64,000 bases of DNA, from NCBI RefSeq assembly GCF_014695385.1, contig NZ_JACJOD010000006.1, positions 310,001-374,000 of the forward strand. The letters run 5' to 3'. Position 1 is the first letter of the stretch; every line of letters starts with the position of its first letter. Position numbers and translations under genes: made by a program. The notes under the pieces were generated by a model that saw only the letters and a list, made by a program, of their open reading frames with translations, was not told where the DNA came from and made no database searches. Positions 40,559-42,230 of this stretch are shown here, piece by piece. Source of the DNA: Trichocoleus sp. FACHB-46 (GTDB lineage Bacteria; Cyanobacteriota; Cyanobacteriia; FACHB-46).

Positions 40559-41143
40559 GCACTAAGTTCCAATCAGGTTGCGATCTATACTCAAGAGGCA
40601 AAATTTCGCGAGAAATTGGCCTACAATTCATCTTTTTAATTGTAAACCGCAGCTACTAAAGCTGTTTGCTAAGATCAACCTCGTCGCCTTACGAGGAGGT
40701 CGAGCCAACTCAGTTGTCGCCTTCAAGAATCTTAATAATTGATTGTGATTAAAGCTTGACTATTCTTCAGCTTAATCTAGGGCAAATCAGACCGCGATCG
40801 CCACTTCATACATACATTTCTGGCGAATAGCAACCGAGGATACAGCGGCAAATATCTGATTGATCGTAAACTTGGCTACTGCTTTTAGGTAGATGACCAT
40901 GCGGTTTAACGTGAGCTATATTGTCTCAAGGATGAAGGGTTCAATCAACCTCGGATAAGGAATTCCTCATACAACCGTGTTGGTGAAGGATTTCTTAACG
41001 TTATTTAAATCACATCTGAGCACAATCTTTGCTCTGAAATAGAACCGTCTTTTGATGGCATTTCTTACATCAAAAAGGCGTTCATTAAAACATTCAGTGG
41101 GTAGCCTAATCCGGATTAATAAGCATCAAGGTGAAAACTTGAA
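40559..41143. other. Intergenic region upstream of riboswitch
   Basis: It holds the promoters of the divergent helicase and the riboswitch transcript. Visible structures: hairpin CCTCGT/ACGAGG (40679-40696), hairpin TTTTGATG/CATCAAAA (41050-41075), and the perfect palindrome TAATCCGGATTA (41107-41118) 26 bp before the riboswitch, a candidate operator. No ORF looks real. Confidence 0.55.
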
Positions 41144-41248
41144 TGCTGTTTCGTCTGGAACGGAGGAACCGATTTTTGGGGCTAATCTCAAAGATTAATT
41201 TGAGAGAGACACCTTCCAGTCTTAGCCCGTCAGCTAACTCCGTCGGCA
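41144..41248 (+). promoter_or_regulatory. c-di-AMP riboswitch (ydaO/yuaA class)
   Basis: Matches the ydaO-yuaA consensus as I remember it: GGAACGGAGGAACC then GATTTTTGGGGCTAATC, and the near-invariant 3' block AGCCCGTCAGCTAACTCCGT. P1 closes through TGCTG (41144-41148) with CGGCA (41244-41248, one G-U pair). The class binds cyclic di-AMP and normally turns genes off when c-di-AMP is high. A terminator follows at 41368-41399, just before the Usp-like gene. Confidence 0.9.
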
Positions 41249-41367
41249 GTGGGAGGAGTACCTAGGACGCAGGCTTTTGATAGCAACGGTCATTGCGGTC
41301 TCCTAGCAGATATCAGATTCCCCTAAGAGATTTCTCTCAGAGTTGATGATGTCTGTTTCCTGGCCCA

Positions 41368-41399
41368 CCTCTCGAAACAAGTAGTCTGGAGAGGTTTTT
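41368..41399 (+). terminator. Riboswitch-linked terminator that also covers the ribosome site
   Basis: Stem CCTCTC (41368-41373) with GAGAGG (41389-41394), then TTTTT. It ends 4 bp before the GTG start at 41403. The 3' arm contains GGAGAGG, which is also the only plausible Shine-Dalgarno for that gene (8-nt spacing), so the same stem could stop transcription or block translation. Confidence 0.8.
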
Positions 41400-41402
41400 A
41401 TC

Positions 41403-42230
41403 GTGAATATTATGCCAATGTTGGTGCGGCTACAGGGCGCACTGGGTTCAACTGACTTAATCGAGCAAATTCTGCTGTTGCCTCAGCGGCCCAAGGGCGA
41501 TCGCTCGTCCGGTAAACTGCATTTACCAGGTCAGGCTCGGCGGGCTACTAAACGGCACCTCCAGGCTAACCGTCCAGAAGCAGCGTCTGGAGCTGATGCT
41601 GAAATTAATTTGGTGGTGGGCTACAACAGCTCCCCCAAAAGCCAGACCGCTTTGGATTTGACCCTGTGGATTGCTCACCAGACTCGTTTAGCGACTCGTC
41701 GCCAAGTGACCGTACAGGTGGTCTATGTCATCAATCCCACTGACTGTCTAGATAGCATTCCCACTACAACCGATTTTCGCCCGGTCAGAACGGGCAAGAA
41801 ATCTTCTCAGCGCCAAGCGCAGCTATCTAAGGCACTGGTGGCACCTGATACTTATAGTGCGGCCTCTAGTGCCACTTCGGAGCGGGAAGGCGCGATCGCA
41901 ACTCTAGCTGAACCAACCCTAGAAGATGCTGGGCTACCATTTGGCAATTACCCCCTGTGCCAAGTAGACCAATTTGAGCAGGCAGACCGAATTTTGTGGC
42001 AAGCCCGCTGTCTAGCTAACGAGTGGCGTGGTTCCCTGAAAACGCACCTACGATTTGGGCAAGTCGCTCAGGAATTGCGGAGTGTTGCTAAAGCAGAATC
42101 GGCAGTGCTGTTGTGGTTGGGTTGTGACTCTCCCAAGAACTCCATTGTCCGAACCTTGAGCGCCAATAGCCCTTGTCCCGTCTTGGGCGTACCCTCTTCT
42201 CTCCATCCCGATCGCTACTTTGATGCCTAA
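41403..42230 (+). CDS. Universal stress protein (UspA)-like protein
   Basis: This 275-residue protein has the UspA fold split into two recognisable parts. Residues about 66-110 give the first strand and helix (INLVVGYNSSPKSQTALDLTLW ... VQVVYVINP). Residues about 195-270 give the C-terminal strands (LKTHLRFGQVAQELRSVAK, VLLWLGC, NSPCPVLGVP). A low-complexity insert of about 80 residues separates them, and a 60-residue basic segment precedes the domain. Usp proteins bind nucleotides or signal stress, often near ion transporters. The GTG at 41403 is chosen because GGAGAGG is 8 nt upstream; ATGs at 41412 and 41418 are too far from it. Control by the upstream c-di-AMP riboswitch is expected. The function is not known. 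Confidence 0.82.
   Translation: MNIMPMLVRLQGALGSTDLIEQILLLPQRPKGDRSSGKLHLPGQARRATKRHLQANRPEAASGADAEINLVVGYNSSPKSQTALDLTLWIAHQTRLATRRQVTVQVVYVINPTDCLDSIPTTTDFRPVRTGKKSSQRQAQLSKALVAPDTYSAASSATSEREGAIATLAEPTLEDAGLPFGNYPLCQVDQFEQADRILWQARCLANEWRGSLKTHLRFGQVAQELRSVAKAESAVLLWLGCDSPKNSIVRTLSANSPCPVLGVPSSLHPDRYFDA

Follow-up and report, generated by a model that had tools for sequence, protein, structure and literature searches.

A cyanobacterial universal-stress protein gene behind a c-di-AMP riboswitch leader with a conserved Shine-Dalgarno-sequestering hairpin

In cyanobacteria, cyclic di-AMP (c-di-AMP) serves as an osmotic signal, and few of its targets are known. Is a universal-stress protein (Usp) gene one of these targets, and at which step of its expression would the nucleotide act? 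This question is raised by a leader in the 64 kb stretch of DNA analysed here (hereafter, the window), for which a first-pass annotation had proposed a riboswitch, a terminator and a split Usp gene.

A covariance-model search with cmscan matched RF00379 at 41134-41263 (forward strand) over the full length of the model. The score was 70.3 bits against a gathering threshold of 38 (E 2.9e-14), and RF00379 was the sole Rfam family to reach its threshold in the whole window. The blocks quoted earlier as marks of a ydaO/yuaA motif, GGAACGGAGGAACC and CCCGTCAGCTAACTCCGT, are both present at the locus. In addition, the P1 strands GCC and GGC, the AAU that follows, and the GGAACC and CCCGUCAGCUAAC cores were found. 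The observation of a c-di-AMP riboswitch in front of the Usp gene is confirmed. Judged by its sequence, the leader is a genuine member of this known riboswitch class, and c-di-AMP would be its ligand.

The 5′ end of the aptamer had to be moved, because the first-pass annotation, like Rfam, placed it about 40 nt too far downstream. The P1 strand used by cmscan is UGCU at 41144, which lacks the conserved AA, while GGGTAGCCTAAT at 41099-41110, upstream of GGAACC, agrees with the Rfam consensus GCcgAAu. This block is common to 41 of 43 Usp leaders, and its part GCC-UAAU is invariant. Therefore, we place the 5′ end near 41097 (Table 1). The start was set too far 3′ because P2 holds an insert, and the extended P2 stem, as judged by eye, is retained in the two sister species. 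The GCC and GGCA of this leader presumably correspond to the published ligand-contact positions, if we have the numbering right. The contacts tabulated for the class are G5, C6, C7, A9 and G107, C108, A109 (PMC7288161). Separately, an inverted repeat, TTTTGATG-N10-CATCAAAA, lies 5′ of the aptamer at 41051-41076. It is retained in both sister species and may be a regulator site.

Table 1. Features of the riboswitch leader and the Usp gene (positions in the window)
Feature	Position	Strand	Basis or remark
c-di-AMP (ydaO/yuaA) aptamer, corrected 5′ end, conserved 3′ flank GGGAGGAG	41097..41258	+	RF00379 match and GGGTAGCCTAAT
5′ flank GUGGGU	41097..41102	+	candidate long-range partner of GCCCAC 41363-41368, just before the anti-SD
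P1 5′ strand GCC, paired to GGC 41245-41247	41104..41106	+	invariant block; Rfam consensus
Extended P2 hairpin, lineage-specific insert	41111..41158	+	MFE -17.9 kcal/mol
Conserved CCCGTCAGCTAACTCCGT core	41226..41243	+	direct reading; near-invariant columns of leader alignment A3
Hairpin b	41254..41304	+	5′ arm overlaps conserved 3′ flank of aptamer
Hairpin d	41306..41356	+	position conserved, sequence variable
SD-sequestering hairpin	41367..41395	+	anti-SD ACCTCTC 41367-41373 with GAGAGGT 41389-41395
Shine-Dalgarno (SD) GAGAGG	41389..41394	+	direct reading; 8 nt 5′ of GTG
Usp-domain protein, 275 aa, GTG start	41403..42230	+	PF00582

The gene behind this leader encodes a Usp, with a PF00582 match of 28.1 bits (cut-off 24). 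In an AlphaFold2 model (40 homologues; mean pLDDT 74), residues 111-184 form a disordered insert of about 70 aa, with pLDDT mostly below 50, that breaks up the Usp fold. Thus, the gene is indeed of the universal-stress type but is not split: it encodes a single domain with an insert. The best Foldseek matches were Usps, namely 4wny (E 4.5e-7), TeaD (3hgm; 1.6e-6) and the Usp domain of KdpD with c-di-AMP (7ji4; 0.012). A sequence-profile search for PDB relatives of this Usp found none. The GTG start is conserved: V comes first in 49 of 51 homologues, its codon is mostly GTG in the family, and VKIKPMLARLQ follows in relatives of many genera. The ATP-binding motif Gx2Gx9G(S/T) was not found in the 40-sequence alignment, where only its first Gly (G240) is retained. 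The c-di-AMP motif of KdpD, (A/G/C)XSXSX2N(Y/F), is absent as well. The segment of the window protein reads GYNSSPKSQ, and in the alignment N, D or S replaces the first Ser and Ser replaces Asn. A role of this Usp as a KdpD-like c-di-AMP receptor was therefore rejected.

RF00379 was found in 94, and this Usp subfamily in 52, of 386 cyanobacterial genomes. The riboswitch is present in 51 of the 52 Usp-bearing genomes against 43 of the 334 without Usp (Fisher p 3e-36), and it lies directly upstream of the Usp gene in 42 of the 52. Thus, the suggested link between c-di-AMP and a Usp in a cyanobacterium is supported and is not unique to the window. The osmotic or stress connection suggested along with it is counted as supported together with the riboswitch class and the Usp target. 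In four more genomes, the Usp gene lies distally, downstream of an ABC operon led by the riboswitch. In another three, it follows an ATPase gene, and the riboswitch is on another contig or was not found; three further genomes have neither arrangement in the stretch covered. A second set comprises 77 named loci from another collection, which overlaps the 386-genome sample. The riboswitch is just upstream of the Usp gene in 51 of these loci and somewhere in the available upstream DNA in 71. Genera include Myxacorys, Leptolyngbya, Phormidesmis, Nostoc, Microcoleus, Fischerella and Tolypothrix. When genome contigs were queried for Usp relatives, an alignment query found 238 and a single-sequence query found none. 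One Usp leader (L050), which cmscan did not report, has an insertion of about 170 nt in its aptamer; it nevertheless retains the platform and the two conserved halves.

Three hairpins, b, d and the SD hairpin, lie 3′ of the aptamer. Hairpin b is conserved, with co-adapted arms and a mean z of -2.8 (41 leaders); in alignment A3, it pairs columns 29-36 with 74-83, with A-U to G-C changes in six sequences. Hairpin d (MFE -16.5 in the window) is stable in most cases: the mean z is -2.4 in 40 leaders but only -0.39 for the window copy. In the SD hairpin, 95.9% of cells were paired across 36 distinct leaders, whereas slid controls did not exceed 66%, and the SD itself is retained as GAGARG in most relatives. 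Its covariation is mostly in one column, a U-A/C-G double change in six sequences that reflects few independent events. The hairpin goes with the riboswitch: 41 of the 48 Usp genes that have a riboswitch of their own carry it, against 3 of the 27 that do not (Fisher p 1.9e-10). Orthologues without their own riboswitch often retain the GAGAGG, and the anti-SD arm is mostly missing. One of the three exceptions has a decayed riboswitch (GTCAGCTAATTCCGTGGG) and an intact SD hairpin. The stability of the SD hairpin is not unusual (mean z -0.7), and the pairing probability of the SD is not above that obtained with shuffled upstream sequence. Therefore, the case for this hairpin is made by conservation and covariation: the anti-SD:SD helix is conserved, covaries and is tied to the riboswitch.

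Our conclusion is that the hairpin controls ribosome access and that any contribution from termination is local. Because the hairpin goes with the riboswitch as an SD stem and its U-tail is not conserved, we infer translational rather than transcriptional control of the Usp gene. Attenuation is the usual mode among the best-studied members of the ydaO class. It would here mean that c-di-AMP promotes intrinsic termination ahead of the Usp gene, at either hairpin d or the SD hairpin. The first-pass annotation had described a terminator with the SD in its 3′ arm. A hairpin with the SD in that position exists, yet as a terminator it is not conserved: a U-rich tail, defined as at least four T among the six bases after the SD hairpin, was seen in no more than 3 of the 48 named leaders, and the other 45 have no U-run. 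In the window itself, the tail TTTTTATC is rich in U, and therefore some termination is possible in this species; short U-runs also follow hairpin d in a few relatives (L043, L052, L060). However, the U-run is already broken in both sister species (TTTTCATC), most relatives have TTAAAACT or a similar tail, the 3′ arm of the hairpin is the SD itself and a simple terminator scan did not detect the hairpin. Attenuation is thus unlikely, and we dropped the termination reading because the U-tract is not conserved across the named leaders.

The neighbourhood of the Usp gene suggests what the protein does. Elsewhere, the Usp gene is often the last gene of a riboswitch-led NrtABC-like ABC operon, and an NrtC-like ATPase gene is found less than 1 kb from Usp in 52 of the 77 named loci. 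This linkage to a transporter, as in TeaD, is absent from the window genome. There, a second riboswitch leads an operon of permease, binding-protein and ATPase genes. The permease matched the ntrB model (238.9 bits) and the ATPase the ntrCD model (367 bits), both above the cut-off; the binding protein gave a weak SsuA-like match. The nitrate label of this operon is taken from the model name. It might be argued that the Usp is a general stress gene that captured a riboswitch, and that its association with ABC genes is positional hitch-hiking. Indeed, the Usp gene (C6) and the ABC operon (C8) of the window genome are on separate contigs, and Usp is a single gene there, with a convergent TPR gene next to it. 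Yet both are preceded by RF00379, although unlinked, in all three genomes of this genus, each of which keeps both riboswitches, one Usp and one ABC permease. Moreover, the linked arrangement recurs across many lineages, and a Usp gene inside the operon usually lacks a separate riboswitch and SD hairpin. We consider hitch-hiking rather improbable. The Usp protein probably works with the ABC transporter in osmotic balance, and by analogy a TeaD-like partnership of the two is plausible. An enzyme to make the ligand is also encoded, by one diadenylate cyclase gene (133.7 bits; C6:397677). This single gene adjoins uppS-like and lysA-like genes about 46 kb from the riboswitch.

In which direction would the ligand act? 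By analogy with known members of the class, which are OFF switches (PMC7288161, on KimA and KtrAB), high c-di-AMP would turn Usp synthesis off. An ON switch, in which c-di-AMP would expose the SD so that more Usp is made, is quite unlikely in view of these precedents, although the direction is not readable from the sequence and SD accessibility in the folding test was independent of the aptamer flank in either direction.

When the aptamer 3′ flank was blocked in silico, the predicted SD accessibility was unchanged. Two switch helices were rejected: one would pair the aptamer 3′ flank GGGAGGAG with the anti-SD, the other the 3′ arm of hairpin b with the SD. Neither was co-adapted, and constrained folding had no effect. 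Co-adaptation was confined to the anti-SD:SD and lead:b3′ helices. The 5′ flank of the aptamer offers another lead. It reads GUGGGU in Usp-type leaders, with GGGT/C in 65 of 84 of them against 3 of 136 other leaders, and two of those three are Usp loci missed by the classifier; most other leaders have AAGUC. In 60 of 74 leaders, the best partner of the 5′ flank lies on the 5′ side of the anti-SD, compared with 749 of 1480 shuffled flanks (51%). The energy comparison of the 5′ flank with whole platforms was weak, and the helix is hardly formed in the unconstrained fold of the window (0.53 expected pairs). We regard the helix of GUGGGU with CCCAC as a candidate switch helix, as a lead only. Transporter-type RF00379 leaders (L016, L018, L219 and others) have a 5′ flank, AGUAAGUCAGCC, that includes the P1 strand. 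It is complementary to GGCUGGUACU past the post-aptamer hairpin and resembles a P1-strand switch.

Taken together, we propose that RF00379 in the 5′ leader controls mainly the translation of a cyanobacterial Usp gene whose SD can be locked in the conserved hairpin ACCTCTC:GAGAGGT. Binding of the ligand to the aptamer would shift the leader to the locked state, so that high c-di-AMP would give less Usp. The Usp would act together with an NrtABC-like ABC transporter under the same signal and may adjust the uptake of solutes or ions during osmotic acclimation, much as TeaD may do for TeaABC. The basis is computational, consisting of the aptamer, the SD hairpin, conservation, gene linkage and the diadenylate cyclase gene, and we judge the explanation as a whole, a translational c-di-AMP riboswitch with the Usp as ABC-transporter partner, to be somewhat more probable than not. 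A more tentative extension is that, in many cyanobacteria, c-di-AMP governs both an NrtABC-like osmolyte or ion transporter and a dedicated Usp regulator, each with its own version of ydaO, and that the 5′ aptamer strand differs to suit the two platforms; the Usp might then adjust the transporter, perhaps by sensing an adenine nucleotide.

The Usp target is conserved and apparently undescribed. We found no mention of a Usp as a c-di-AMP riboswitch target in the literature searched, and an earlier listing, for example in Nelson 2013, is possible. The conserved set of riboswitch, Usp and ABC transporter provides named, testable targets in culturable strains, an unnamed Usp subfamily gains a possible role, and the expression platform departs from the usual terminator. 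Other genes also lie behind RF00379. In four leaders (L031, L110, L126, L137), it precedes a glycosyltransferase-like gene (IALISVDGDPAVEIGQEEAGGQN), possibly for compatible-solute synthesis. Three others (L011, L068, L108) have a CCCACCTC-type platform before short non-Usp ORFs (e.g. MINYKQSVPESNTELNDVAGDYTEPEENQYQE).

How does this leader compare with known systems? It shares with ydaO/yuaA RF00379 an aptamer above threshold, the GGAACC and CCCGUCAGCUAAC blocks and a diadenylate cyclase gene in the genome. It differs in its Usp target, an SD-sequestering platform in place of a terminator, an extended P2 and a class-specific flank, GUGGGU, on the 5′ side. A passage of PMC5986932, citing Nelson 2013, refers to cyanobacterial c-di-AMP riboswitches for osmoprotectant genes. 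The slr0753 riboswitch of Synechocystis is likewise a cyanobacterial use of RF00379 in an osmotic context, but its target is a putative chloride efflux transporter and not a Usp (PMC10117731). RF00379 before SLC13/ArsB-like permeases, assigned by sequence pattern, was seen in L007, L009, L030, L078 and other leaders, which are perhaps of the slr0753 type. The Usp domain of KdpD with c-di-AMP (PDB 7ji4; PMC8214093) has the same fold, and both proteins lack the full Walker A motif and retain its first Gly. In contrast to KdpD, the window Usp lacks (A/G/C)XSXSX2N(Y/F) and is a free-standing protein, not a kinase domain. TeaD (PDB 3hgm; PMC5549992), which may regulate the ectoine transporter TeaABC, is 13-14% identical to the window Usp. 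The latter differs by its long disordered stretch and retains none of the ATP motif beyond the first Gly. The partner of TeaD is a TRAP transporter, whereas here it would be an ABC transporter. Nevertheless, the two proteins have in common the Usp fold and a transporter-linked gene.
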